A stretch of DNA of 64,000 bases from Pochonia chlamydosporia 170 (taxonomy: Eukaryota > Ascomycota > Sordariomycetes > Hypocreales > Clavicipitaceae), in contig NC_035792.1 of the NCBI RefSeq assembly GCF_001653235.2, positions 4,154,001 to 4,218,000 on the forward strand, given 5' to 3'. Below are positions 45,226 to 62,974 of this stretch, one piece after another. The translations under genes and the position numbers were made by a program. Below the pieces are notes generated by a model. That model saw only the letters and a program-made list of their open reading frames with translations, made no database searches and had not been told where the DNA came from. Position 1 is the stretch's first letter, and every line of letters starts with the position of its first letter.

Positions 45226-47199
45226 CTTGAGCCTGAGTGTGTGTGCCTGAACCAGAAGCCTGAGTGTGATGTCAGGCAGTGAGCGGCGGGGTCAAAGACG
45301 TCAAAGAGGTGATTTGAGTTTGGGGTTTGAGAGACGCAATGCTCGAGGAACGCAACAAAGAACAAAAAGTATGCACCAGACCCTTCTGGCGAGTTCAAAT
45401 CAGCTACACAGAGGCAGATGGTGTTTCTATATGGTCTTTTTGAAAAAGAACAAGATGCCACATGTGATGACAGTGTCTGCTTGCGTAGTCCTTGTCGAAT
45501 GCCTCGCCACTGTGCCCCAAGGCAGTCGCCTGGTTTCCTGATTGGGAGGCCCAAGGTGAGGAGGCCGCGTACGTGAAGCACCGGCCAATCACGTCACATG
45601 ACTGCTTTGTAGACGCCTTGTGCTTAGCTTTGAGGCTCTCAAAGTGTAAAATCTGCCACTAGAACCTTGAAAGCGTATTACTGTGCAATGCATCGCGAAG
45701 GTTCACTCTAAGCGAGATGCTCAGGTTAAGAACACCAGCTGGCTCTTGGTGTTATCCAGCACGCATGGCGCTCGGAGGGTCCTTTAGAGTCTGGTCTGGT
45801 GCACATGTGGGGGACTGCTGAGATTAGTCTGCAGCAAAGCACCATGAAGACTTATGCCAAAGCTGCGTGGCATAATCGGCCAGTGCACAATGGTTGACGA
45901 CATGCACATACTTTGCCATAGCATACAGTACTGAGTATGATTATAATGTGCAGAAGCTTCCTTTCGTCATGGTGTCTTGTCGCGCACGCTCGTGTCTCGG
46001 GCGAAGAAAGCGACTTGAGCGACCACCGACAGCTTAGCTGTTGCCTGAAGTTCTGGATGTCTTTGCCTCAATTCCAGCCTTTGGATCCAGTTGGGGCTCC
46101 AGCTAGCCCCAGACCTGCCCGGATGCTCGGACCGGCAAAATTCACAGCTGGAGCTTTTTGTGCAGATGGCTTAGTGCAAGTCTTCACCCAGGTACTGCGC
46201 ATGCATTCTTGAAGTCAACTGTACCCAGACTTGACGAAGGGGAGATGCTGCCATTGCGGCCAATTGCAACGTCCCCATCCTCGTCGTCTCGCACACCCAC
46301 AGACCGCACATGGCCCACGCAGGAGCACAGGACAACGTTGAAGAAAATGAAAAGGAACAACAACATCTTGGCATTTAGGGCCTTGCAGTGAGGATCACCA
46401 GTGATGCAACGACAAGATTCATTCCTCAATCCTCCGAGACAAGATTACCACAGTGATGATATGATAGACAAGACTGCATACCAAATTGCCAATGGACTCG
46501 CCACACGTGCGCCTCTGCTACTTCCAGCCTCGTGTCTCTCAAGACCATGGTGGATTCATCAAGGATGACCGAATCAGATAACTTGACGTCGGACCTTGCA
46601 AATCATTACATTGCAACACATGTACGGAGGAGTACCTGAGGCTAGTCGCCGTACATATGTAATGTAATGTGATGCACATGCACTCACTCACTGCACATGG
46701 ATTGGAACGAATTAGAGCCGTGGAGAGCGGTTACAAGGTGTCAAATTTCGATGCACCCTGGCACCCATGACCATGTCTGGTCCTATTCTCGATCGTAGTG
46801 CTAGCATCGCTAAACCATGAAAAAAAACCTACTCTCCAGCTCAAGTCAGCTTGAGAGAGACCGCCCGCACCTTGAGTTTGGATATCTACCGAGTCCGTAA
46901 AAGGAAAAATTGCAACAAAAATACAACACTGCTGAGACGATTGCCGTCGGAAACTTGAGCCGCATCATGAAAATATTGGGGGCGGCGACACCACCTGTGG
47001 TTGTGCCCGCTGATCCCGACTGGCCGCGATTCGTTGTGTTGATCAAAAACGCCACATGCAGTCTAACGCCATATGCTTTCCCTTCAGGAGCCGTAAATTT
47101 TTCTTTCCCGCCCACACCACCGCACGTCAAGTCTGGTCTGGTCCGCGTTTTATCGACGGCTTGGCTGGCTTTGACGCACCCCTTCCCGCTCAACATTGC
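45226..47199. other. intergenic region
   Basis: About 2 kb with no recognisable gene. Short open frames such as 46910-47203 (+), which overlaps the small gene's last exon on the other strand, are not supported. No repeats of note. Confidence 0.55.
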
Positions 47200-47491
47200 T
47201 TAGTGGGAGGTGGTTGATGAGGCGCTGGAATCGACAGAGTCCGTAGAGTTGGTACGGGTCGTCTTGGTACGCTCACTGCAAATCTCATGTTAGTTCGTTG
47301 TTCAAAGGGGTTGCTGCTTTAGTCTCGCAAATGAAGCTCCAAGAAAAGGAAAAAGGTAGAGGTAAGGCATACTAAGCAGAGCGATCCTGCAAAGTGCAGG
47401 TCCAGCGGTTGTTGCCAGTCTTGATGTGAAACTTGATGCCCTTGTTGTCACCGAAGGCAGCAGGGGGAGCGGAAGCAGAAGATCCAGCCAT
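47200..47491 (-). CDS. small two-exon protein (64 residues), unknown function
   Basis: Exons 47491-47373 and 47275-47200 with a 97-nt intron (TA|GTATGC ... TTTGCAG|T) join in frame to 195 nt ending in TAA. The product begins MAGSSASAPPAAFGDNKG, continues IKFHIKTGNNRWTCTLQDRS and, across the splice, AYERTKTTRTNSTDS, ending in a Ser/Thr-rich tail. The first exon alone would be 39 codons. Support: good donor and acceptor, a coherent Thr/Ser-rich second exon that stays in phase, a pyrimidine-rich leader on the coding strand, and my recollection of similar tiny proteins in related fungi. No signal peptide or membrane helix. Function unknown. Confidence 0.7.
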
Positions 47492-50400
47492 TGTGAATGA
47501 GAAGAGCTCAAGAAGTTTAGTTGTAAAAAAAGAAAAAAGGACGCTTTAGTGTGTGGGAGGAATGCAAGGACGGAAAATAACGACGTTGATGCGAACACAA
47601 AGGCGAGAATGAGTCCAGGTGGAGGGGAGGTCAGGGCCTTTATACAGTTCTCTCATAAACATCAATACCCTCAGAAAGGCGACACAAGAAAGACAACAAT
47701 CCAACCGGCAAAAAATCAGCGCCGACTGGTTGGGGGTGGGCTGGGGATTCTCGCCCACTTCTCCGGTCCAAGACACCGAACAGGAACATTCACTTGCCCC
47801 AAGCTAATAATACACGCGCATATGTCGCGGTATGAGATAAGGTGAGTTATTTTCTTGCTGTCATGGACAGGCGGACCTAACCTGTCCATGTACACCACGG
47901 AGACGAACTCGCCCTATGAAGACTAGGCTGGATGGGTGCCAATCTCCTGCCCCACGATCGTGTTGATAATTGGAAAAGATAGCTGCATGGGGTTGCTGGG
48001 TTTCTGGCGCCATCCTGAGGAAATCCCCATGTGTGGCTTTTTGGAGTTGCCACCACATTTCCAACGAGAATGCGCAAGCGAGATGTAACAGGGCAATCCG
48101 GGTGGTCTCGAAAAGACAGACACGCTGGCACGAGCGTTGTGCCCGTACTCTATTGTACCAAGAAGGGAAATTTTCTGAAGAAAAAACCTTATAGGCGTCG
48201 CGGAGCCAGAAGCCACCACACCCACCTTTTCCTTCCTCCCAGTCGGCGCCGAACTCCGTCTTCATGGGTCCAGCCCGGAAATTTGCCACACAATGAAACG
48301 GACTCTTTCAACAACGGTTACCGTTCACTCAAACAGCAGAGGTACGGCGACTCATTCGAAACCATAACTCCGACAATAGGCAGGTAAAATCAGCAGTGGA
48401 GTACGACCTGTGGATGCAGGCGACTTGTTTGTGGGAGGGACGAGGTTTTCCTTTGTGCAGGCGGAAACGACGGAGTCGTCATGACCACCCTAACCCTAGC
48501 CTCTGCTCTCGACTGACGGAGCTGGACGCATCCAGTCTGCTGGATGCTGAGGTTTCTTCTCAACAGGATCGTTGGGATTAGGCCACCGCATTCCTGCACG
48601 CCAAGTGCTCTTTGGCTTGCTGGCTGGGCAAGCCTCGAAACGAAATGTGGACAACCCTCCAAATGAAGGGTTTGGTGGGTTGAAAATCCAGACGGTGGTT
48701 TGATGGGCTCGGATTGTTGCTTGATAGGGCGGTGGGGACCCGAGTGATTCCCTTCCCGCAACGTCAGCGTCTTGTGGAATGCCAGCTTGTTGTTCTAGAA
48801 GGAATATCCATGGACATAATTGGCTCCTGGATTTCTGCTACATCTGCAAGGACAGGGGTGGCTGATGGTAGCAAAGTTCTGATACGGACTGTTTTGTTCC
48901 TGGTTTGGGGATGCAAGTGGGCGAGAAGACATGGATCAGCACTACCGTTGGCTGGCTCCAGCTGCGTCGGCCCAAAGGTAACGATAATCTCATCACCGTC
49001 ATTGAGTCCGCGGAGCTATTTGGGCGCGAGGTCCGACAGGGTGTGACTCGGTGTCGACGATCCTCCTCCTCTTCGTGGGACATCTCTCCTGGTCATCTTC
49101 CTGCTGCTTTGAACAGCTTGAGTTGTGAAAGGGTCTTTCTGAAGTAAGAAAACGCTCAAATGCCGTTGGCTTTGGCTGTTCACAACAGTGAAGCGTCTGG
49201 TCGCTATTTTGCACCTATGTTCAAGCTGAGACAAGGTGCAGTGATGTCCTGTTCTTGCTCATTCTTTGGGAAGCCAATGCGCTACGTCATGTGAGCTGAG
49301 TCGCCATCCTCTGCTTGACCCGCCTATGCCGCGCATGCACATTCTCCATTGAAGTACCAGCATTGCACAGGACTGGTTGCACAGCAGGCCATTGGAACTC
49401 CATGCCTCTGTTCCTGGCCGGGATTGCTCACAGCCAGGGGAGTGTGATCAGTGAGAGGCTGGTCAATTGGTCCATGTCTCAAGACCTGCGCTTGATTGGG
49501 CTTCCTGCACCATATTTGGTGAGTTTTGTAGGCATCGTGTTGGGACTCGCAAGGCATGGTGTGACGAGTGAACAATGTACAAAACTATTGTCTGACACAG
49601 ATCTCTCTCCTGTAAATGCCTCAAATCGTTGATTCTGCTGTGCACCTAGCTGGGTTCTTAGCCTTAGCGGCGGCTTTCATGGGTATAGTGACGGAGCTGT
49701 GCTGTCTGGGACAGGCCAACCAGTTGCCCATCTAAAAACGAGACTTTCTGACCCTGGTGATTTGGCTGGCTTATGTCGTTTTTGACAGCAAACCCGAATA
49801 TTCTCATGCCCGAGCATTGGATTGCCGATACAAATCGGGCTCTTCTCTCGTGCTTGCAGCTGGCGCATTAGTTTTCCCCCTTCTCTCGGGACGCACTGCT
49901 TACTTTGGCTATTTCAGAAATGCCTTGACTTGACAGGCATATGCTGGCTGTCCACAGACTTGGCTGCACCAATCTGAGGGCTGTCTGGCCTGACGGCTGC
50001 AGTGGAGGTAGGTTTTGCAGTAGCGCGGCTCGATCGTCCAGGCGGAAAAGCTTAGCGGTTGATGAAGCCAAGCCTCAAAAGGACGGATGGGCTGCAACCC
50101 CAAAGCAGACGACGCTCTCTGAGATGCGCATAAGCATCTCCGCACAAGTGCTCCATAGATACTGGCATGTAAGGCGGTCGGCGACGACAAGTAATAGCCC
50201 TCTTGGCGAAGCTTGTGGCCAGGACGATCAGACGATCCAATATGTGCCACGTTGCCTTCCAAATCATGGGTAGGGGGTGTTTCTGTGCCGTGCTGCTAAA
50301 TCTCTGCTCGAATTGAGTGCCCGCCTGGAGAGGAGTACATTATTGGCAACATCTTGGCATCTTGGCGATAATCTTACGAGTGTCGTCGAGACACAGCAAC

Positions 50401-52053
50401 AAAATTAGGAAAAGGTGAGTTACAACGCGAGTTTCTCCTCAGCTACCTCGGTAGGTATCATGAATGCATGAGGAAGGAGACAACAGTGGCGGACCGTTCG
50501 AGGCCGTTCCTTCCCTTTACGTCCCTCACGAGGTAATTGCCCAGCTGGACCGTCCCCAGAGTGAATGCCACAAGGTGCCAGGTGCACCAACATCTACCCA
50601 GACATTACATTTGCTGTATTGTGCTGGAGTTGATTCCCTGGTTACTGATTGCAATGCTCTAGATGAGAGTCCCATATTGATTCACCTTCTGGTGTCGACT
50701 GGAGCAGCTATCGTCGAGCAAGCCGTGGGAAATTTAGTCCCAGGCGCAGCTGTTTGTGACACGCCTTACTTGGGCAACAAGCTTTACGAACTTTCCCCCG
50801 CAAGGAACCCGTCAAGTGCAGTTTGAGCCGGAATGACACCATTCCGACTCTGATGTGGCCGCTATTTGAAACTCATGTGCAAGCAAGGCTCGGTAAGGAC
50901 TTCCTCAAGAAGCATCAGGCACCCTGTTGGTGAAAGGGTCAGACGAAATTAAGTCGGCTCGTTATTCAGCCTGGGCTTGACCAAGTACCCAAGTGAAGTA
51001 CACATATGGTCTCTTCCGAGACCTACGGAGGCGGACGAGAGTCGTTGGCACAGACAGTGGAAGCTTTGTCTGACTGATATGGGCTCTGGTTCGACCTCTC
51101 TTTTCAGTCATTGCTTTTTCTCAGCACGTAAGTTCTCTTTGACGGCGGATGACGATGAAAATCAGACACCATGCCGGAACAGCCGGCAAACCATATATTC
51201 CGACGCAACCAGCTAGCCAAGATCGACAGCATCTCGGTCCTGAAGTGATGCTGATTTGTTCTTAGGCGATACTACCGTGTATGACGGTCCGCGCCGGTGA
51301 AGATCTCGATACACTATGACTTCAATGAAAAAACAGCGGTGAGATGTTGAATGTACGCGTTCTTCTGAAAGCAGTATTAGTATTTAGGAATATGTAACCA
51401 ATCCTGATGAGAATGCGCCTGAAAGCATCAACGAGTGGGATACCCCCAAGGTTACTATTACAAGCTCCTTAGTCCAAAACCAAGACACATTTCGATAGGA
51501 CCTACCTTTGAGTAGTTGATGACTGGCATAGACTAAGCGTTGGAATCGAGCGGCATTAAAGACCTGACCATCTTCTCCGATTGATCTAGGATTTGCTTCA
51601 GTTCAATGGGCTTGGATCTACATTACAAATAATAACAGAGTTAGTGTTAATCCACAGTTCATGTGATGGCTTCGAATAAGAATCCCCTTCGCCTTGGAAT
51701 ATCCACGGTGAACCAAATCGGCGGCTTTGTAGGATATTTTGTGACGGCTATTTGCCAAAGTATCTGATGACATTGCAGGGAGTATGTGCGGTCAATCACA
51801 GGCACAACCGGCGGGTAGTGCACTTCCATTGACAAAACAAGCCATTTTGTGTATTTCTGTTCGCTGCGCCCTCGTAATAGACATGTAGAAGATACACAAA
51901 TACTTCCTCTAGTAAATCAACAAGCTGTTACCTATTTTTCTCTGCCTTTTTGTAGTTTCGGATGCGTTCCGGTGGATCGTCCACAACGGTGTTTAGGTTC
52001 CCTCCGCACACCGCACCGCACGTGGGGTTGAGATCCGCAACTCGGATAGCAAC
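47492..52053. other. 4.6-kb region without a recognisable gene
   Basis: No family recognised on either strand. Open frames are all at or below about 145 codons (47861-48289 -, 50464-50826 +, 49941-50273 +), overlap each other on both strands and show no domains. CCTCGGTAGGTA at about 50451 resembles the CCTAGGTA palindromes elsewhere. The right end should contain the promoter of the Zn2Cys6 regulator. Confidence 0.5.
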
Positions 52054-52065
52054 CGGTACCATCCG
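52054..52065 (+). promoter_or_regulatory. CGG-N6-CCG site upstream of the cluster regulator
   Basis: CGGTACCATCCG, 88 bases before the regulator ATG. It has the same half-sites and spacing as the palindromes before the pathway genes and shares their right half (CATCCG), but the left part of the spacer differs. A second CGG half-site (CTCGGATAG) lies ten bases further upstream. Suggests autoregulation; weaker than the other sites. Confidence 0.45.
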
Positions 52066-52153
52066 TCCCCGGACTTCGATCAATCAACCGCTTCCCATTA
52101 CCAATTCCTGCCAAAATACCAGTGGTGTTTCGAAAAGCTTGTTTCAATTCGCC

Positions 52154-54358
52154 ATGTATGAGCGCCAGAGAGTCTGGAGAGCCTGCCAGGCATGCCGCAA
52201 GAAGAAGATCAAGTGTGATGGTGAGCAGCCATGCAGGAGCTGCAACAAGAGTCGGGCGGATTGCGCCTACACCGAACCGTTCAGCAACATGCGCATGGCT
52301 GATCCTCAGTAAGGACGGACTCGGCCTCATATGACATATAGTGACTATGAGATCCATAATAACGCGCGTCACAGATATGTTATGAGACTAGAAAGCCGAC
52401 TTCTGTCGATGGAAAAGAAGCTCCGAGAGCAGAATGACAATCTTGCAGCTGGGTCTGCTGCTGACGTAGCGCCTGCAACCACGGCATCTACAACTAACGA
52501 AAACGGCCAAAGAGAGCATGTCAATGATTTACACCAAAGGCCCGTCAATGGTCATGCGATTCCACCAAATAGAGATCACGAAGGATCTGTGCATACACAT
52601 CGTAATGAGGCGACTATTCCAAGTCCCACAGCTTCCCAACAAACACCAGTAATGCCTCTCGAGGTACTGGATCCAATGCTTTATGATTGCACTGGCGATT
52701 TTGTCCCCGAGGAATCACCTAACCCCGAAAGCAAGCTGGAAGATATCAGGAGCCTGCCACAGAGTTTGATCGAGGCGCTGGTCAGCCAATTTTATCGCAA
52801 CACATATTCAATATTCCCCATTATTCGGGAGCCAGAATTCAGACAGCAATTAGATCAATGGACCTCATCTGGGGAAGATGATAATGGCTTCGTGCCTGTA
52901 CTATATGCTCTTCTGGCTGTTTCTGCCATCGTTCTGCCGGCCGATCACGCTGTCTTCAATATACCAGAGGTACAGGGATACAAGTCGCTCGATTTGGGAG
53001 ATTTAATATCCTCACACGCGAATTCAAAATTGTCTCTTAAGACCCACAAGTCTGGGAAACTTGCTCGTGCCAACTCAGTAGTTGCACATGGGCTGTTGAG
53101 TCTCTACTTGGCAGAAGTCGGCCAGGTCACAGAAGCATGGGTAACGGCTGGCCACGCCATACGACTTTATCAAGGACTAGACTTGTACGACAGCGCTTCA
53201 TCTAGTATGGGGCCAGTGGAGGTTCAAAACGGACACAGCGCCGTGTGGTGGTGCTTATACATACTCGACCGATCTCTCTCGACCGTGCTTCTCAAACCAC
53301 TGGCAATTGACGATGCAGAGTGTGATGTGAATTCTAGCGATGACGGAGAGAGCCATATATCTGTTTCGGAGGACGAGATAGACCCCTGGTTTTCCATCAT
53401 AACGGACTTTTATATCACCATGGGCAAAATTTACAAGTCAGTTCGTTCAATACGACGACTCCAGCACTCGGACAAGTGCAGCACCAATGAAATCTTACAT
53501 TCGCGTCTCAAGAAGCATGATCTGGAGCTTGAGCAGTATTATGAAAAGCAAGTTCTCCCCAACATGAGACATACGTCCAACGACTCCCAGCGAATGGGCC
53601 TGCAAACCATTGCTGTATGTTCCTACTTCATTGGTGTGGTCTTGCTATATCGCCAATTCATCGAGACGTTCCACATCGAGGATCCTCAAGTCTACCTTCG
53701 CTGCGCAGAGGCTGCATCCAACTGCATCAAACTGACACCAAAGGTCTTGGACACAATTCCTGCAAGCCATTTCATAATCCAGCAGAGCCGCTCAATATAC
53801 GTGAGCGCCAAAGTCTTGCTGCATTGCACGCGGCTGGCGCGAAATGAAAATTTTACCAAAAAAGCCTGGGATGACGTACAGATGGGATTGGATTTGCTGC
53901 GAAAGATTAAGATCCAATGGCCAGAAATAAAGAAATACCAGAGGCTCACGGAAGAGGATATGCGCCGTACTCGTATCGAGCTGGACAGACATGAGTCCTT
54001 TTCCAAGACGTTTGATCTATTCGGATCTATTTCCGGCGATGGGAACTACACTCGATTACCTGGCTCTAGCCCAGCCATGAGTAATGAAATGGCCGATTCG
54101 AACACAGACCGGTGTCATAAACGGAGTCGGCCAGGTGTCGAACTAGATGATGCTCACGATACGCAGTCTCCGCCAAAGCGACAAAAGTCATTACGGCCGT
54201 GTAGTTACCTCAGTCCCGACTTTCCAAGTCTGTTCCAAACAGGTGGAAGCGAGATGGCAGATGACGATTTCACAATGTCGTTTATGCTTGACCTAGCAGC
54301 ACTTACACCAACAACAGCATTTGCGTCCGCCAACCTATGCGGCAGGGAGGGCAACTAA
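52154..54358 (+). CDS. Zn2Cys6 transcription factor, probable regulator of the 3-hydroxyanthranilate cluster
   Basis: Exons 52154-52308 and 52375-54358 give 712 residues. The 66-nt intron (CA|GTAAGG ... GTCACAG) contains an in-frame TAA and joins MADPQ to YVMRLESRLLSMEKKL, a leucine-rich coiled coil expected right after the zinc cluster. The DNA-binding domain is C11-x2-C14-x6-C21-x5-C27-x2-C30-x6-C37 with RKKKIKCDGEQPC. The fungal-specific middle domain (PF04082 type) spans about residues 180-420, with LVSQFYRNTYSIFPIIREPEF and AVWWCLYILDRSLS. The C-terminus is acidic and may activate. It lies just left of the dioxygenase (convergent, 84 bases apart). Zn2Cys6 dimers read CGG half-sites, and CGG-N6-CCG palindromes stand before the pathway genes. 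The start at 52154 is preferred because the upstream extension (from 51962) is leader-like. Confidence 0.9.
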
Positions 54359-54442: not shown

Positions 54443-55174
54443 TCAATAAGGTGGTGCAACTTCACCACACTCTCTGCACCTACGACTCTCCTCGTTGCTC
54501 ATCCAGTCATCAATCACAACCTTAAGCTGCGACTCAATATCCGCACAGTAAAACTTTTCGTGCCGAATAATGACGGGCTCTTCTCCATGCGCTGCCTTGT
54601 TGGGGCAATACCATCGCATCTGATCGATGCTCTCCTTTGGTCTATTTCTTTCCATGACAAGTCCAATAGTGTCTTTGTATCGAATGGGCGAATGAGGCGT
54701 ATTTCCTGTTTTAATATATGAATTAACGCGTCTGAATTTGTGCTCTGGTACGGTGTAGCGAAACGTACCTGGAAGAAGGAACATTTCGCCTTCGCGGATA
54801 TGAATATCTCGAAATTGGTTTCCATTCTCAACGATTTTTAATAGCATGTCGCCTTTGATTTGGTAGAACCATTCCTGTCATTTACGTTAGCGGTTAGTGA
54901 GTGAATGGAAGATGGTTAATCACCTCTGTTTCGTTGACTATGTAACTTTGTTAGCGAGAAATATATGTGGAATTTGGACCTGGTGTGCCCACGTACTGTG
55001 ATAGTCACTTCTGGTGTTGGGTCCTCCAACAGCCATCAAGATAAAGTCTTTGCCTGAATATAAGCATTGGTTGTTGACTGGCGGTTTCAAGTTGGCAGCG
55101 TTGGTAGATAGCCAAGATGACAGGACAAGTGGCCCTGGAAGTGATGGAAGGGGTGCATTATCCGCCGTGGCCAT
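54443..55174 (-). CDS. BNA1: 3-hydroxyanthranilate 3,4-dioxygenase
   Basis: Opens 3-hydroxyanthranilate to 2-amino-3-carboxymuconate 6-semialdehyde (ACMS), using Fe(II). Four exons: 55174-54997, 54937-54924 (only 14 nt), 54874-54769 and 54705-54443, giving 186 residues, normal for the family. Cupin signature: [19 protein letters not shown] with iron ligands His59 and Glu65, then [17 protein letters not shown] with His104, and [10 protein letters not shown]. The C-terminus has the rubredoxin-like metal site (RWYC ... CRECG) of the bacterial and fungal form. The last intron (63 nt, 54768-54706) has no stop and keeps frame, so retention would insert 21 residues before PHSP. It may serve NAD synthesis in general, but its neighbours argue for a catabolic copy. 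It shares a 308-base promoter with the ACMS decarboxylase. Confidence 0.94.
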
Positions 55175-55482
55175 TTTGCGGTTTAAGATTTGATTGCTTT
55201 TGGTTGGGTGCAGTGTTTATTGAGCGTCAAGACTATGAAATAACTTCATCGAGTCTCAACACGTCAAGTTCAAATATTATATCCCCTGCACCCCCTCGTG
55301 ATCTAATATTCATGTTGGCATCCTCACGGTGAGCGGACCGCGTTCCGATGACGTGCATTCGGATACATCCGTATACAAAGCATTTCATGAACGACCCAAA
55401 TTCATCAAATATATCTTTCAACTTAAACACAGAAGCATCATTTAAAAACTACTAGATATTTTACTTCAGGATATCATCAACA
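55175..55482. promoter_or_regulatory. shared divergent promoter of the dioxygenase and ACMS decarboxylase genes
   Basis: 308 bases between the two ATGs. It contains the palindrome at 55360-55371 and, 20 bases before it, a second CGG/CCG pair (GCGGACCGCG, 55333-55342). One regulator bound here could switch on both genes. Confidence 0.75.
55360..55371 (+). promoter_or_regulatory. CGG-N6-CCG palindrome in the divergent promoter
   Basis: CGGATACATCCG, one base different from the CGGATGCATCCG copies before the dehydrogenase and RidA genes. It is 111 bases before the decarboxylase ATG and 185 bases before the dioxygenase ATG. Confidence 0.75.
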
Positions 55483-56808
55483 ATGAGCTTAACCACCTCC
55501 CGTTCTCCCTCCGGTGGAATACACAACATGCGCTTCAACGCCCAAATGACCACCAGGCCCAAAACATGCGACTGCATGTCCGCAAATCCATACAAACCAT
55601 CAGTCTCACACGTTGAAAGACCAGAATCTTCCCAAAAAGCATTCAAGATCGATATGCACACACACATCATGCCGCCCTCACTACCAAACATGTCACAATT
55701 CGACGACCCAGCAAACACCAACGAATGGATCAACCTACGGCCTCATCAACCATCATCCGAACCAGGCAAACAGCCCAAAAAGGTAGACATGTACGTTGGC
55801 GATAAATTCTTTCGCACCGTGGAAGCAAACTGCTTCGATCCGGAGACGCGAATCAAAGAAATGGATGCGAGTGGTGTATCCGTGCAGGTCCTCAGCACGA
55901 TTCCCGTCCTGTTCTCTTACGATAAACCCAGTAAGCCGGCTGCACTGCTTGCACGGCTACTAAACGATCACATCGCCTCTCTGTGTCGAGTGTATCCCAA
56001 TCGATTCGTGGGACTTGCCACGGTGCCGTTGCAAGATGTCCCTGCTTCGGTTGAAGAGCTGAATCGTGCGAAGGGCCTGGGCCTGCGTGGCGTAGAGATC
56101 GGCACTGAGATTAACGGACGAGAATTGGATAGTCTGGAGATGGAGCCATTTTGGGAGGCGTGCGAGGAGTTGGACATGCCTGTGTTTGTGCATCCGCTGG
56201 GATATGAACTCGCCAAGGAGAATAAGAGGTGGGAGAAGTATTGGTCTGCCTGGCTAGTTGGGATGTATGTTGCCCTGCAAGTCCACAATCGCTGTTTCAT
56301 AGACCATGATGTTAACATGCTATAAAGGCCAAGTGAAACAGCTCTCGCTCTGCATGCGATAATCTCATCAGCCGTATTAGTTCGCCACCCGAAACTGCGG
56401 TTGTGCTTCGCCCATGCTGGCGGCGCGTATCTCCCTCTCCTGGGTCGTATTCAACACGGCTATGACTGCCGACCAGATTTAGTAGCTCACAAGTCGGAGG
56501 GTGTATCGCCCACAGAGCAGATCGCGTTTCCTCAGCGTAATATCTGGATAGATAGTCTGGTGCATGATCCGGATCTGCTGGAGTACATGTGTAAGAAGAT
56601 CGGGCCGGAGCGCATCGTCATGGGCAGCGATTATCCGTTTCCGTTGGGAGAGGTGCCTTTTCCGGGGAAGATGATAGATACGGATGAGAAAGTCAAAGAG
56701 TTTTTGTCGGAGGAGAAGAGGGAAGGGATGTTGTGGGGGAATGCGGTTGAGTTTTTGGGCTTGTATGACTTGGTGAGGGAGTGGGAGATGGAACGGGAAC
56801 GGGTGTAA
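55483..56808 (+). CDS. 2-amino-3-carboxymuconate 6-semialdehyde decarboxylase (ACMSD)
   Basis: Amidohydrolase-fold decarboxylase turning ACMS into 2-aminomuconate 6-semialdehyde, diverting it from quinolinate and NAD. Exons 55483-56264 and 56328-56808 (63-nt intron AT|GTATGT ... TAAAG) give 420 residues. Zinc ligands: [10 protein letters not shown] (His59, His61), [24 protein letters not shown] and the late Asp in [13 protein letters not shown]. Other family blocks: [18 protein letters not shown] and [13 protein letters not shown]. It is longer than the ~336-residue animal enzyme because of a ~52-residue N-terminal extension and an extra stretch near residues 75-105 ([10 protein letters not shown] ... 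DMYVGDKFF). In-frame ATGs at 55528, 55546 and 55576 would shorten the extension; 55483 has the best context (CAACAATGAG). A related gamma-resorcylate-type decarboxylase is possible but the genomic context favours ACMSD. Confidence 0.9.
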
Positions 56809-57139
56809 TTGGAAATGTAGTTGGTGATTTGGAGCAATACACGGGTTTAATGTCATCACACTTGTTAATTTACCATAAGGGCTACGAAGTATATCAAATA
56901 TTTTTGTTCAATTGCACTGCCTAGTCGCACAAAAAACATCACATGCATGCTGCTGTTTCATCGAGTCCGTCCCGTCCGTCCGTATCCGACAGTGTGATTG
57001 AAATCGGATGCATCCGACTCCAGATGCAGCCACAAGCTCATGCCATCAACCTCACTCTCCTCATAAAATCAGAAACAAATCCTCAGTCAGTCGTTTCCGC
57101 TACAAAGAATTACTATTATCTCATCCTCCAATCTCCAAA
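56809..57139 (+). promoter_or_regulatory. promoter of the aldehyde dehydrogenase gene
   Basis: 331 bases between the decarboxylase stop and the dehydrogenase ATG. It holds the perfect palindrome at 57005-57016 and, just upstream, a CCGT-repeat (CCGTCCCGTCCGTCCGTATCCGA, about 56967-56989) with extra CCG half-sites. Confidence 0.6.
57005..57016 (+). promoter_or_regulatory. perfect CGG-N6-CCG palindrome before the dehydrogenase gene
   Basis: CGGATGCATCCG, extended by flanking T and A to the 14-base palindrome TCGGATGCATCCGA; 123 bases before the ATG at 57140. The same 14 bases occur before the RidA gene at nearly the same distance. Confidence 0.85.
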
Positions 57140-58757
57140 ATGGACACAATCGCAGCACTCTGGAACGCCAACACCCCAGAAGCGGCAGACGCCTTGCTTC
57201 AAAGAACCAACACCCAACCCCTCCGCATACAAAATTTTGTGGACAATGAGTTTCAACAGCTCTCTCCATCCGCCACTTGCATGGACTCGTATAACCCTCG
57301 AACCGGCAAGCCCCTTATTCAAGTCCCGTGTAGCTCTCACGCGGATGTGCACGAAGCCGTGGATGCAGCAGCCAGGGCATTCCCTTCCTGGTCTCAAACC
57401 CCGAGACGCGAAAGAAGCCGGCTGTTGCAGAAAGTTGCGGATCTTATTGAGGAGAATAAGCTTATGCTTGCGCTGTGGGAGAGCATAGATCAAGGGAAGA
57501 CGATAAGTCGCGCCATAGCTGAGATTGAGAGAGCGGCATCAAACTTTAGGTCTGAATTTTCCCCTATAGCACCATGTGTAAGATGACTAGGCTAACGATG
57601 TAGTAGTTATTTTGCCCAGTTCATTCTCTCTGAAGAAGGGACAGTTCGATACGTAGATGGCGAGTCACCAATTATGGCATATGAGCACCGATCGCCGGTT
57701 GGTGTTTTCGGACTCATCACACCGTGGAACATGCCGCTGTATCTTTTGACTTGGAAAATTGCGCCTTGCCTAGCATTTGGATGTGTTGCAGTTGCGAAAC
57801 CAAGTGAAGTGACCAGCGTGACGGCATTCCGTAAGCCATGTAATATCTCTAGACTACATCCCACTCTAACTTGTGCCAGTACTATGCGAAATATTCCGCC
57901 AAGCCAAACTACCCCCCGGAGTCATCAACATGGTATTCGGCAAAGGCGCATCAGCAGGCTCAGCCCTCGTCAACTCCCCAAAAGTCCGCGGCATCTCATT
58001 CACAGGCGGTCTAAGCACCGGAATACGCATCCGTCAAGACACAGCCGCTGACATCGGCAAACACATCTCCCTGGAACTCGGCGGCAAAAACCCCAACCTG
58101 ATTTTCGAAGACGTCGACATGAGCAAGGCAGTTCCTCTCGCTGCAAGAGCCGCCTTCGAAAACAGCGGCCAGATCTGCCTGTGTGGATCGAGAATCTACA
58201 TCCATCGCTCTCGGTATGAAGAGTTCATCACCGCATTTGTGGACTACGTGAAGCAGAGTTATAGATGCGGTGAGACGCTGGGGCCGGTCGTCTCCAAGGA
58301 ACATTATTCCAAGATACGGGCGTATTTGGCTTTGGCACAAAGAGACTCTGCTACGTTTCACCTAGGCTCTGTTCCTGAAAAAGACCCCCAGGGAGGTTAT
58401 TGGATATCACCTGTGATATTGACGGGACTTTCGCAAGAGAGCCAGGTTATTCAAGAGGAGATTTTCGGTCCGGTGGTGACGGTGTCTATGTTTGACACGG
58501 AAGAGGAAGCTATTGCTCTGGCTAACGACAATGCAAATGGCCTGGCGGCGGTGGTCATGACGAATGATGTGTCGAGGATGAGACGCGTTGGAGAGCGAAT
58601 TGATGCGGGATTAGTTTGGGCTAATTGCTGGCTGGTGAGAGAGTTGGGCACGTCGTTTGGCGGCATGAAGGCGAGTGGCGTGGGAAGAGAGGGTGGTTTG
58701 CAGAGTAGGGACGTTTTTACGAATTTGAGGACGGTGCATGTACCATCACGTTGGTAG
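57140..58757 (+). CDS. aldehyde dehydrogenase, probable 2-aminomuconate semialdehyde dehydrogenase
   Basis: Would oxidise 2-aminomuconate 6-semialdehyde to 2-aminomuconate with NAD. Exons 57140-57549, 57607-57830 and 57880-58757 (introns of 57 and 49 nt) give 503 residues, typical for the superfamily. Seen: [20 protein letters not shown] with [13 protein letters not shown] (NAD-binding region), LELGGKNPN (general base Glu276), [15 protein letters not shown] (catalytic Cys310) and [29 protein letters not shown] and the [11 protein letters not shown] context are features I associate with the ALDH8A1 / bacterial AMSDH branch. The position downstream of the ACMS decarboxylase gives the substrate assignment, which remains an inference. 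The start at 57140 (CCAAAATGGAC) is preferred to the upstream in-frame ATG at 57008, because the palindrome lies at that point. Confidence 0.9.
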
Positions 58758-58849
58758 GCAGTTGCAAATTTATTACCAGACCAAAACGCTTACTTGATCT
58801 ACTAATCGCTGCTCTTTGCTGAACTTTGTGATATTCTACATGTAAGTGT

Positions 58850-58861
58850 CGGATGCATCCG
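58850..58861 (+). promoter_or_regulatory. perfect CGG-N6-CCG palindrome before the RidA-family gene
   Basis: CGGATGCATCCG within TCGGATGCATCCGA, identical to the copy at 57005; 125 bases before the ATG at 58987 and 93 bases after the dehydrogenase stop. Confidence 0.85.
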
Positions 58862-58986
58862 AGTGGGGAAAGTCGATGTTGAACATATATTTGTGTACAT
58901 CCGCTCTTCGCCTTACCGAATGTCACTCAGACTTCACATCACAACCACAAATTCCAAAAAAATTGCAAACATCTCCAAAAGACAAC

Positions 58987-59457
58987 ATGTCCGACTCACC
59001 AAACGGAACCCCCTACTTTCGCTCCTCCAACCACGCCCAAGGCCTGGCAAACTATCCCCACGCTCGCATTGTCCCTTCCGGCAACGCGCACACCATCTAC
59101 GTTTCTGGAACGTCCTCCCGCTGCGGCGATGGAACTTTTGTCGGCGCAACTCCCACCAAAGATGAATCCGGAAACACGACGCTAGACCTGGATATCCGGC
59201 TTCAATCCGAGGCTGTTCTGTCAAACATTAGCGAAGTCATCAAAGGCGCCACCGACGGCAAGGCAAACATGCGGAACGTCGTGGAGGCGACTGTGTTTCT
59301 CGTCAACGTGGAAAGGGACTACAAGGGCATGAATGAGGAGTGGAATAAGGTGTGGCCAGATCGCGCGTTGGCGCCGGCGAGGACGACGGTGGAAGTGAGG
59401 GCTTTGCCGAGGCCAGAGATATTGGTGGAGATCAAATGTGTAGCTCACTTGCCGTGA
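58987..59457 (+). CDS. RidA-family protein, candidate 2-aminomuconate deaminase
   Basis: Single exon, 156 residues. YjgF/RidA fold: the C-terminal signature PARTTVEVRALPRPEILVEI contains the active-site Arg, preceded by VVEATVFLVNVERDYKGMNE and by IYVSGTSSRCGDGTF near the N-terminus. In bacteria that degrade 2-nitrobenzoate or 2-aminophenol, a RidA-superfamily enzyme (AmnD/NbaF type) hydrolyses 2-aminomuconate to 4-oxalocrotonate and ammonia. The position directly after the semialdehyde dehydrogenase, with the same promoter palindrome, suggests that function here. A general enamine/imine deaminase scavenging reactive intermediates of the pathway is the alternative. The start at 58987 (GACAACATGTC) is the first ATG after the leader; the open frame upstream from 58846 includes the palindrome and is not coding. 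Confidence 0.88.
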   Translation: MSDSPNGTPYFRSSNHAQGLANYPHARIVPSGNAHTIYVSGTSSRCGDGTFVGATPTKDESGNTTLDLDIRLQSEAVLSNISEVIKGATDGKANMRNVVEATVFLVNVERDYKGMNEEWNKVWPDRALAPARTTVEVRALPRPEILVEIKCVAHLP

Positions 59458-59527: not shown

Positions 59528-60520
59528 TTATACCTTTACAAGAAGCTTTCCCATTGTCTTTTGCGAAGCAAGATCATCCTGAGCCTCGCCCAGACTCTCC
59601 AAAGCGTACGTCCCTCCCAGTTCTATCTTGACAGCCCCCGAGCCAACCAGTTCCAACAACTCTCGAGACCGCTCTTCAAACTCCTCTCTTTCAGTAATGT
59701 AATTCGCCAGCGTTGGCCTCACCAGCTTCACATTCTTCTTACTCAACGCCAGTATCCCAAAATTAGCCACGACACCACTGCTGTTCCCGTACGACACCAA
59801 CGTGCCCTTTCGTCTCGTACACGCCAAATCAGCCTCAAACGTAGCTGCTCCCACACCACTAAGCACCGCATGACATCCCTTACCATCAGTCAGCCGGCTG
59901 ATTTCCTTTTCAACATCAACATCCTTGTAGAGAATGACATGATCACAACCATGCCTCTTCGCTACTTCAGCCTTTTGCGGCGTAGATACCGTTCCAATGA
60001 CCGTGGCGCCGAGATACTTGCACATTTGTACCAAGAGACCGCCTGTTCCGCCCGCAGCAGCTTGTACCAGAATCGTCTGTCCAGCTTCCACTTTATGCGC
60101 GTCTTGTACCATTGTCCATGCCGTGAGCCCTTGCAGCATGATCGCCGCCCCGGATTGCGTTGACACAGACGCTGGAAGCTTCATGACTCCGGATGCTGGA
60201 GCGGAAACGTATTCCGCCATGGTTCCCTGCGTGAATACAGCGATGCGGTCTCCAACATTGAGACTAAGGGTTGATGGGACTGCGGATCCGATGCTGACGA
60301 TTGTTCCGGATCCTTCGCGGCCGGCTGTGAAGGGGAGTGGCATGGCGTATACGCCCGTTCGTTGGTATATGTCGATGAAGTTGACGCCTGCGTATTCGAC
60401 TTTGACTAACACGTCGAGGGCGCCGATGGATGGTAGTGCTAGGTTATCGACATGTTGGAGGATTGAGGAATCGCCAACTTGGTGGATTTGGACACCTCTC
60501 ATGGAGGATGGGAGAGACAT
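59528..60520 (-). CDS. MDR-family NADPH:quinone-type oxidoreductase (zeta-crystallin/ZTA1 type)
   Basis: Single exon, 330 residues. Medium-chain reductase without the structural or catalytic zinc Cys clusters. Seen: VEYAGVNFIDIYQRTGVYAM with AGREGSGTIVSIGS (GroES-like domain, about residues 45-85), then the nucleotide-binding loop VQAAAGGTGGLLVQMCKYLGA (AAxGGxG, about residues 142-162) and LSGVGAATFEADLACTRRKGTLVSYGNSSG. Family members reduce quinones or alpha,beta-unsaturated carbonyls with NADPH. It is convergent with the RidA gene (70 bases apart), and its promoter carries one copy of the half-palindrome (CGGATGC on the coding strand, 60677-60671). Cluster membership is therefore likely but less certain than for the others. 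It could reduce a pathway intermediate or be a stress gene. The start is the first ATG of the frame; the codon at 60559 is not ATG. Confidence 0.88.
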   Translation of the reverse strand: MSLPSSMRGVQIHQVGDSSILQHVDNLALPSIGALDVLVKVEYAGVNFIDIYQRTGVYAMPLPFTAGREGSGTIVSIGSAVPSTLSLNVGDRIAVFTQGTMAEYVSAPASGVMKLPASVSTQSGAAIMLQGLTAWTMVQDAHKVEAGQTILVQAAAGGTGGLLVQMCKYLGATVIGTVSTPQKAEVAKRHGCDHVILYKDVDVEKEISRLTDGKGCHAVLSGVGAATFEADLACTRRKGTLVSYGNSSGVVANFGILALSKKNVKLVRPTLANYITEREEFEERSRELLELVGSGAVKIELGGTYALESLGEAQDDLASQKTMGKLLVKV

Positions 60521-61501
60521 GGTGCAGTGGTGATGATGGTGAATTGGGCTAAGAAGCACTATTGATGACAGACAATTTGTGATGTTTGTCCAAAATATTT
60601 TAGAACAGCTTCATTGTTCAATTGCGATAAACTTCCCAACACGGCATAGGCCCACTGCGGCTCCGGACCGGCATCCGTGTGGAGGAGAGCCCGGGAGAGG
60701 CTACCGGACAGCGCCGTGATTGGCTGGACGCTTCCGTCTTTATTTGGAAGCTTTGTTTTAATCTACACGAAAGAGTCTATGCTGATGTGATAACTGTCAG
60801 TCAGTGCTAGGGGTCGAATGGCAATTGTTGCATAGATATAGAGAGAATTAGTCATACAGCAATGTCGTGCAGTTCTGTGATTGAACTTTCCAGTAGGATA
60901 AAGTACGACCGACAGTTTAACATTATGTGTAAATACGTCAGCGGCTCTACGGAAGACTTGCCAGGAACCAGATATTATTCTCAAACTACCGACAATTGAC
61001 AAGGCATCAACTAATTCCATTGGCAACTCCTCCTTGATCAAACTCAGATTTCCTTGCTAATAAAGGCTAACTGCGTAAATTTTCGGGTAAATTTTCCCCA
61101 GTGTCGATCCTCCGCTTCCACAATTAATGCGGCTTCCATTCTGAGTTTAACTCAGTCTATCGGCCCTTTTTGCTCCTCTCGAAACACCAAGCACCACGCG
61201 TCACAACTCCAAAGTGACGCATGAAGACGATCCCCTTCATTGCAACTCTATTGTAAAACATATTTGCGTATAAACTTCTACCATGGATCAATTATTCGCG
61301 GTCGGAGTGTCGATCACTGCTAAGTCTGATAGCATGTTTACCCGAAGTAAACTGCCAAGTTCCTGTTTAATTGTAACATCTACGTATTCATGAAATATAT
61401 AATGTCTCGAATTCTCTCGCAACTTTAGTCTCATCTCGTAGATCACAACTCTGTTTCAAATAGTCGCTAGCCTTGAAACTCTACAAGTTTAGTGGTTCAA
61501 C
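60521..61501. other. divergent intergenic region between the oxidoreductase and GH71 genes
   Basis: About 1 kb, no gene seen. Near the oxidoreductase side, 60663-60677 reads CGGATGCCGGTCCGG on the minus strand: one good half-site of the cluster palindrome followed by a displaced CCG. The right part should hold the glucanase promoter. Confidence 0.55.
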
Positions 61502-62974
61502 ATGCTTGCTTCAATAGTCGCAGCGCTATGCGCCGTTCCCTTGCTCGCCTTGGGACAGGACACCAAGCCCGTGTATGCCCATTTTATGGTCCGTACATGC
61601 CCTACACCCTCCTGTAACAACCCCAGCAGAGCTAACCACGTAAATAGGTTGGCATTGTGGAAAACTACACCACAGAAGACTGGAAGACGGACATGACGCA
61701 AGCCAAGGACATTGGCATCGATGGCTTCGCACTCAACTGCGCGCCACCCCGTGTCGACAGCTACACCCCCAAGCAGCTTGCCAATGCGTACGAAGCAGCG
61801 GCAGCAGTTGGTTTCAGCGTCTTCATCTCCTTTGACTTTGCGTACTGGTCCACGGGCGATACTGCTGAAATCACCAGCATCGTGGGCAACTACAGCGATC
61901 ACCCCGGCCAGGCCAAGTACAATGGCGGAGCGCTCGTGAGCACCTTTGTAGGCGACAGCATGGATTGGAATGCCGTCAAGAATGGGCTGGGCGGTAAGAA
62001 AATTACAGTTATTCCCATGGTGCAGGATCCGAATTCCCTGTCGCACATTACGAATGGCATTGACGGTGCGTTCTCTTGGTACGCCTGGCCGACGGATGGG
62101 GGGAACAGTGTTATCAAGGGGCCCATGACAACATTTTGGGATGACAAGTTCCTTCAGAATCTCGGAGATAAGCCGTACATGGCGCGTAAGTGTACCTGCT
62201 GTGTCGTTGCGAAATGTCCCTCTGACTGACTTTGTTAGCCGTCTCGCCTTGGTTCTTCACCCACTTCAACACCAAGAACTGGGTGTTTATCTGTGAGGAG
62301 CAGCCCAGTCTTCGATGGCAGCAGATGCTTGAAATGAAGCCGGCGCTCGTTGAAATCATTACCTGGAACGGTAGGCTCTTCAGCTCTCCATCAACGTGGA
62401 ACAAGCTAACTCCCTGGCAGATTTTGGCGAAAGCCACTACATCTCGTATGTTTAACACACCTGGCATAATAATTACAAGGAGACCTAACAATTATCCAGC
62501 GACGATGAGCCTCACCACAGCGACGACGGCTCCTCCCAATGGGCAAACGGATTCCCCCACGGCGGCTGGCGCAAACTCATGAAGCCCTACATCGCCGCCT
62601 ACAAGACCGGCGCATCAGAGCCCAAAGTCGACGCAGACGAGCTCGTCTACTGGTACCGCCCAACACCAAAGGACACTGCCTGCAGCGCCGACAACGTCGG
62701 CGACTCCAGAGGAAAGGAGCTGCTGGAGGACTTGGTCTTTGTGAGCACCCTGTTGACCGCGCCGGGTGAACTTACCGTGAAGAGCGGCTCTCAGCAGGCG
62801 GTTACGGTACAGGCACCGGCTGGCATCCACACGTTCAACTTTACCATGGGTGTTGGGTCGCAGGACTTTTCGGTTTCAAGAGGCGGAAGTAAGGTTATTG
62901 GGGGGACTAGTCCCAAGGATATTAGCAGTTCGTGCACTACTTTCAACTACAATGCGTATGTTGGGTCTTTTTAA
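61502..62974 (+). CDS. secreted GH71 alpha-1,3-glucanase (mutanase)
   Basis: Would hydrolyse alpha-1,3-glucan of fungal cell walls. Five exons: 61502-61588, 61648-62185, 62239-62370, 62421-62445 (25 nt) and 62500-62974, giving 418 residues; the introns (50-59 nt) carry clear branch sites such as GCTAACC, GCTAACT and CCTAACA. Signal peptide about residues 1-18 (MLASIVAALCAVPLLALG). GH71 blocks: KPVYAHFMVGIVENY, DIGIDGFALNCAPP, GFSVFISFDFAYW, GAFSWYAWP, SPWFFTHFNTKNW and the WNDFGESHYIS active-site region formed across two splice junctions. A C-terminal beta-sandwich follows, with no separate carbohydrate-binding module. The first donor is GTCCGT rather than GTRNGT. Likely roles are wall remodelling or attack on other fungi. 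No functional link to the neighbouring cluster is visible. Confidence 0.92.

Follow-up and report, generated by a model that had tools for sequence, protein, structure and literature searches.

The question raised by this stretch of Pochonia chlamydosporia 170 (NC_035792.1, positions 4,154,001 to 4,218,000; the window, 64,000 nucleotides) is why one palindrome, TCGGATGCATCCGA, recurs at nearly the same distance before separate genes of what appears from homology to be a 3-hydroxyanthranilate catabolic cluster. We propose that the product of the Zn2Cys6 gene at 52154-54358 uses the palindrome and a variant of it as operators, and we give this reading a probability of about 0.72. It is based on the rarity of the palindrome, on its placement in the promoters and on the linkage of the regulator gene to the pathway in other fungi. 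The sites in the cluster promoters are as follows.

57004-57017: exact palindrome TCGGATGCATCCGA in the promoter of 2-aminomuconate-6-semialdehyde dehydrogenase (AMSDH); 122 bases from its end to the ATG at 57140 (123 from the inner 12-mer).
58849-58862: exact palindrome TCGGATGCATCCGA in the promoter of the putative aminomuconate deaminase; 124 bases from its end to the ATG at 58987 (125 from the inner 12-mer).
55359-55372: variant site TCGGATACATCCGT in the divergent promoter of 3-hydroxyanthranilate 3,4-dioxygenase (HAO) and ACMSD; 110 bases to the ACMSD ATG and 184 to the HAO ATG.

All three contain two inverted CGG triplets six bases apart (CGG-N6-CCG, located by pattern search of the window at 55360, 57005, and 58850), and in both exact copies the spacer is ATGCAT. 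The 14-mers thus end 110, 122, and 124 bases 5' of three enzyme ATGs, the variant falling between the HAO ATG (55174, minus strand) and the ACMSD ATG (55483). A preliminary description of this DNA had given these coordinates and the distances of 123 and 125 bases correctly, and had called the site near 55360 a one-base variant, which it is within the inner 12 bases, the second of its 2 mismatches to the 14-mer lying in the outer bases. Both exact copies lie, 5' of the ATG, inside stop-to-stop frames (56925-57488, 57002-57586, and 58846-59457).

The first point to be settled is whether such recurrence could be accidental. Across the 44.2 Mb genome the exact 14-mer occurs at 3 places, two of which are in the cluster, where ~0.17 are expected from base composition and where the same pattern read backward, used as control throughout, gives 0; these backward controls are rough in that their CpG content differs from that of the patterns. 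The pattern CGGATNNATCCG is not enriched genome-wide (24 places vs 30 for the control), and a broad regulon was rejected on these counts; 3 of the 24 places nevertheless fall inside one 3.5 kb interval, that of the cluster, with a probability of ~1.5e-4 when all 24 starting points are allowed for. Within the window, allowing up to 2 mismatches to the 14-mer gives 3 matches vs 0.25 expected, a number also reached in 1 of 100 shuffles. The shuffle result speaks for a chance origin, as do the lack of enrichment of CGGATNNATCCG and the looser forms found elsewhere, with one mismatch at 7 genome places and with at most two at 150 (vs 82 for the control). Against it stand the three exact 14-mers, two of which share a 1.9 kb interval and lie in promoters of a single pathway, and we regard chance recurrence of a short palindrome as very improbable, in agreement with the earlier claim that the recurrence is not chance. 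In the window the bare CGG-N6-CCG format occurs about as often as chance predicts (16 places vs 16.3), and what is special is therefore the ATGCAT spacer and not the format.

Two other origins for the shared sequence were weighed. Duplication of a promoter was rejected, as the flanks of the copies, compared over 10-100 bases, are 0-40% identical, much as chance would give (~25%), and the identity of the 14-mers is therefore no remnant of a recent duplication. The palindrome might instead act in RNA, as a shared hairpin in the 5' untranslated region, since it can pair with itself and lies 110-124 bases before the ATGs; a CGGA/UCCG stem indeed appears in the minimum-energy fold of the leader that carries the variant. 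The palindrome's own hairpin is missing, however, from the minimum-energy fold of both exact copies, and the predicted folds of the three leaders of 138-150 bases are no more stable than those of their shuffles (z of -0.35, -0.52, and -0.66), so that a shared hairpin was judged unlikely and, if anything, has even less to commend it than chance.

What, then, might bind the sites? The adjacent gene is the first candidate.

52154-54358, plus strand: Zn2Cys6 regulator gene; 712 aa, with an intron at 52309-52374 placed by ortholog-like splicing.

Its product contains a Zn(2)-Cys(6) cluster (PF00172, residues 9-43, 40.9 bits vs a cut-off of 21) and the fungal-specific middle homology domain Fungal_trans (PF04082, 46.7 bits vs a cut-off of 23), in a scan that used a splice form 11 residues longer; the neighbouring Zn2Cys6 gene of the preliminary description is thereby borne out. 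Homologues of the regulator (77 proteins, from the 8000 scored candidates that shared most words) occur in Metarhizium, Penicillium, Aspergillus, and Xylogone, and these were set beside the relatives of ACMSD (the best 120 of 992 matches) by comparing locus tags by eye. Eight tag prefixes are common to both lists, and in six of these eight genomes, all Penicillium, a regulator homologue lies at most two tags from ACMSD (regulator/ACMSD: PMG11 02375/02374, N7496 001464/001466, N7462 002314/002312, N7540 007243/007245, N7454 009871/009873, and N7481 004178/004176). A difference of two tags would allow for a single intervening gene, like HAO in the Pochonia order regulator, HAO, ACMSD. The genome with prefix N7462 has a second regulator homologue, 003502, located elsewhere. 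In P. argentinense and Xylogone the homologues of regulator and ACMSD are on records of equal length, and in Xylogone the two are on one record; the record of an untagged Penicillium odoratum regulator homologue has the same length as that of the N7520 ACMSD. We consider the linkage in Penicillium, a matter of gene order, to be the best new argument for placing the regulator in the pathway.

The DNA-binding part is also the better conserved one. When 13 of the 77 homologues were aligned, the first 43 residues were 65-74% identical to those of 11 Penicillium, Aspergillus, and Xylogone proteins, and the middle domain 44-58%; the two Metarhizium models in the alignment are without the DNA-binding part. 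In Pochonia the Zn2Cys6 domain lies in a short first exon (52154-52308), and the two Metarhizium homologues, which start at MRMADPQ and have no zinc cluster, are possibly truncated gene models. To the left of the regulator gene, between the cluster and its neighbours on that side, ~6.6 kb (window 45292-51931) is without an open frame of 150 codons.

The sites could also be true operators that are bound by a different Zn2Cys6 protein from elsewhere in the genome, such as a purine regulator of the UaY/Ppr1 type, to which the preliminary description had likened them. UaY sites carry a T before and an A after the triplets, as do the exact Pochonia copies, and the two inverted CGG triplets of Ppr1 and UaY operators are likewise 6 bp apart. 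The spacing fits that described for Ppr1 (CGGN6CCG; PMC11534201), whose targets differ among yeasts; the uricase locus holds a CGG-N6-CCG with a different spacer, CCGGAGCCCGCCGA, the palindrome itself not being found in the flank examined there, and one exact copy of the 14-mer lies outside the cluster. The exact cluster copies differ from the Ppr1/UaY operators in their ATGCAT spacer. TCGG-N6-CCGA is frequent in the genome (473 places vs 845 for the backward control), yet two of the three places where ATGCAT fills it are in the cluster, and a general N6 binder therefore leaves the inner bases unexplained. Homologues of the adjacent regulator, moreover, stand beside ACMSD in Penicillium. A binder from elsewhere is in our view unlikely, if less so than either chance or RNA.

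The copy outside the cluster deserves separate consideration.

Contig C1, 5541431 (L016:4932): third exact 14-mer; the gene for ETF-ubiquinone oxidoreductase (ETF-QO), identified by Pfam, has its first ATG ~730 bp downstream of it.

Oxidation of glutaryl-CoA, an expected late step of the pathway, passes its electrons via ETF to ETF-ubiquinone oxidoreductase, and a link between this gene and the cluster therefore makes sense, although it is unproven; ETF-QO is a possible outlying target of the cluster regulator. The 1 kb upstream of it (L016:4204-5203) contains 10 CGGAT half-sites, a number that no background window equals (672 overlapping windows, mean 1.6; drawn from window positions 1-51800 and loci L017-L029). 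Six of the 10 come from three palindromes (the 14-mer and two copies of CGGATCCG), and the excess was noticed after looking, so that it is partly circular. The ETF-QO ATG is far from the site, the gene on the other side (GH125-like, by eye) starts ~1.2 kb away, and the palindrome is absent from the ETF alpha locus. We therefore treat action of the cluster regulator on ETF-QO as a tentative extension that is compatible with the proposal made here. The fuller version, in which the cluster-linked regulator reads the extended TCGGATGCATCCGA and through it governs the genes of ring cleavage as well as the distant ETF-QO, whose enzyme would act at the other end of the pathway, would be more speculative still.

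Other sites outside the cluster add little to this picture. Seven of the 21 off-cluster CGGATNNATCCG places were examined, namely every one with the form CGGATRYATCCG (L016 and L024-L029): two (L025 and L029) are inside frames of more than 500 codons, L016 is the ETF-QO site, and at the other four no pathway gene was recognised by eye, the family search having named ETF-QO only. Of the seven one-mismatch 14-mers (L017-L023), six are inside stop-to-stop frames 129-585 codons long, and since the exact window copies are also in such frames, this measure does not separate the two groups.

Several observations weigh against the neighbouring regulator as the protein that reads the palindrome. By sequence, its zinc cluster is nearest that of Put3: when the zinc cluster only was compared with solved relatives, Put3 scored 34.7 bits, Lac9 27.3, and Gal4 24.0, with Ppr1 fifth at 23.7, so that the earlier likening to the Ppr1/UaY type is borne out for the CGG-N6-CCG spacing. 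Put3 binds the wider CGG-N10-CCG. In Zn2Cys6 proteins the linker and coil are generally believed to determine the spacing of the site, however, and a Put3-like zinc cluster therefore does not decide the spacing. In two of the eight genomes with a common tag prefix (N7520 and PFLUO) the tagged regulator homologue is not adjacent to ACMSD, and the linkage seen in the others may reflect joint horizontal transfer, which Martins et al. (2021, PMC7842363, main text) propose for one form of the cluster. HAO has the variant site alone, 184 bases off, and the third exact site is outside the cluster. Finally, the palindrome was not found at the three kynureninase loci or at the second HAO locus, within a flank of up to 1.5 kb each. 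Kynureninase had been predicted as a target, and this prediction is not supported (0 of 3 loci); a genome-wide scan for the motif, which had also been suggested, did place two of the three exact copies in the cluster, with the third at ETF-QO and none at a kynureninase gene.

The kynureninase loci have an arrangement of their own. Two divergent kynureninase/IDO gene pairs lie on one contig (C6:2491613-2495461 and C6:2971055-2975669), and a third kynureninase and an IDO are ~17 kb apart on C11. The IDO/kynureninase divergent promoter on C6 has 5 half-sites in 1238 bp vs ~2 expected from their background density, which we do not take as evidence.

Half-sites are of more interest in the promoter of the regulator gene itself.

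51958-52066: half-site group in the regulator promoter, with CGGATGCGTTCCG at 51959 (N7), CGGATAGCAACCG at 52043 (N7), and CGGTACCATCCG at 52054 (N6).

The 354 bp of this promoter hold four CGGAT half-sites, one of them within a weak CGG-N6-CCG, a number equalled in 0.9% of 1769 background windows. Over the five cluster promoters together the half-sites number 13 vs 2.7 expected, a tally that includes the three palindromes behind the question; without these, 7 are left (Poisson ~0.02). The half-sites and the weaker site are suggestive, no more, of autoregulation.

The genes that the regulator would govern from the palindromes are listed here with the gene at the edge of the cluster, the enzymes being named by homology.

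54443-55174, minus strand: HAO; 4 exons, 186 aa.
55483-56808, plus strand: ACMSD, by homology.
57140-58757, plus strand: AMSDH; 3 exons.
58987-59457, plus strand: putative 2-aminomuconate deaminase of the RidA/YjgF family; 156 aa.
59528-60520, minus strand: NADPH:quinone reductase-like gene, at the cluster edge.

HAO contains PF06052 and scores above the cut-off of TIGR03037 (anthran_nbaC), and below that of a second HAO model, NF009763. The best solved relatives of ACMSD are ACMSDs (2wm1, 269 bits), and no NCBIfam model matched it. For AMSDH two versions of the splice at intron 1 fit, giving 508 aa and 503/504 aa; its relatives were searched with the last frame only (57870-58754), for which 2-aminomuconate-6-semialdehyde dehydrogenases are the best solved relatives (4npi, 231 bits; next kind 215). 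The best solved relative of the deaminase is the 2-aminomuconate deaminase 6izh (68.7 bits; next 44.6). In NCBIfam, the AMSDH frame scored below cut-off for the models listed, and so did the deaminase for the Rid models. The palindrome was not found in the promoter of the NADPH:quinone reductase-like gene; a single CGGAT half-site lies there at 60673, and at 60705 a CGG-N6-CCG whose spacer differs (CGGACAGCGCCG). Downstream of the cluster, the gene at 61500-62974 is presumably a GH71 alpha-1,3-glucanase-like gene, judged by eye. The genome has a second HAO gene (C1:1091965), 55% identical to that of the cluster, and the cluster HAO can therefore be devoted to catabolism. The closest match to ACMSD (55483-56808) listed outside Pochonia is 77% identical and bears the name of Arthrobotrys musiformis, which traps nematodes and belongs to a distant class of fungi, the best Penicillium match being 66% identical; horizontal transfer is possible, and so is an effect of how the protein cluster, with its 17 members, was named.

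With HAO, ACMSD, AMSDH, and the putative deaminase side by side, these genes, as identified by homology, are those of a fungal 3-hydroxyanthranilate catabolic cluster that is already known. Bacterial 2-nitrobenzoate and 3-hydroxyanthranilate pathways (nba, onb) perform the same chemistry, and the Pochonia HAO matches the anthran_nbaC model; the fungal genes differ in that several promoters, separate from one another, drive them and in that their likely regulator is a Zn2Cys6 protein. The main text of Martins et al. (2021, PMC7842363) describes a cluster of 3HAO, ACMSD, AMSDH, and a putative 2-aminomuconate deaminase of the YjgF family, which it reports from some species of Aspergillus, Fusarium, Metarhizium, and Penicillium, and the gene set given there is identical to that of Pochonia. 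That main text, in which neither 'zinc' nor 'transcription factor' occurs, names no regulator or binding site, whereas the Pochonia locus offers candidates for both. No regulator or operator for the 3-hydroxyanthranilate cluster was found among the open-licence papers listed in literature searches, and a literature search with the 12-mer returned one paper, by title on human Orai1.

In the mechanism that we propose for the regulator encoded beside the cluster, a dimer would make contact with both CGG triplets, inverted and separated by 6 bp, and would also read the AT that adjoins each triplet. The bound regulator would then activate HAO, ACMSD, AMSDH, and the deaminase together, the inducing signal perhaps being the build-up of 3-hydroxyanthranilate or of a product. 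Through the weaker site and the half-sites the regulator may in addition act on its own promoter.

What emerges from sequence comparison is a rare and well-placed operator candidate with a linked regulator, in a known type of catabolic cluster, and ordinary in kind: the mechanism itself is textbook for fungi, and the cluster was described in 2021. If the proposal is true, the palindrome and the regulator would form a switch, open to testing, for the animal-like route by which fungi break down tryptophan, and the palindrome would serve as a promoter motif for finding more genes of the pathway, with the ETF oxidoreductase as the first candidate.

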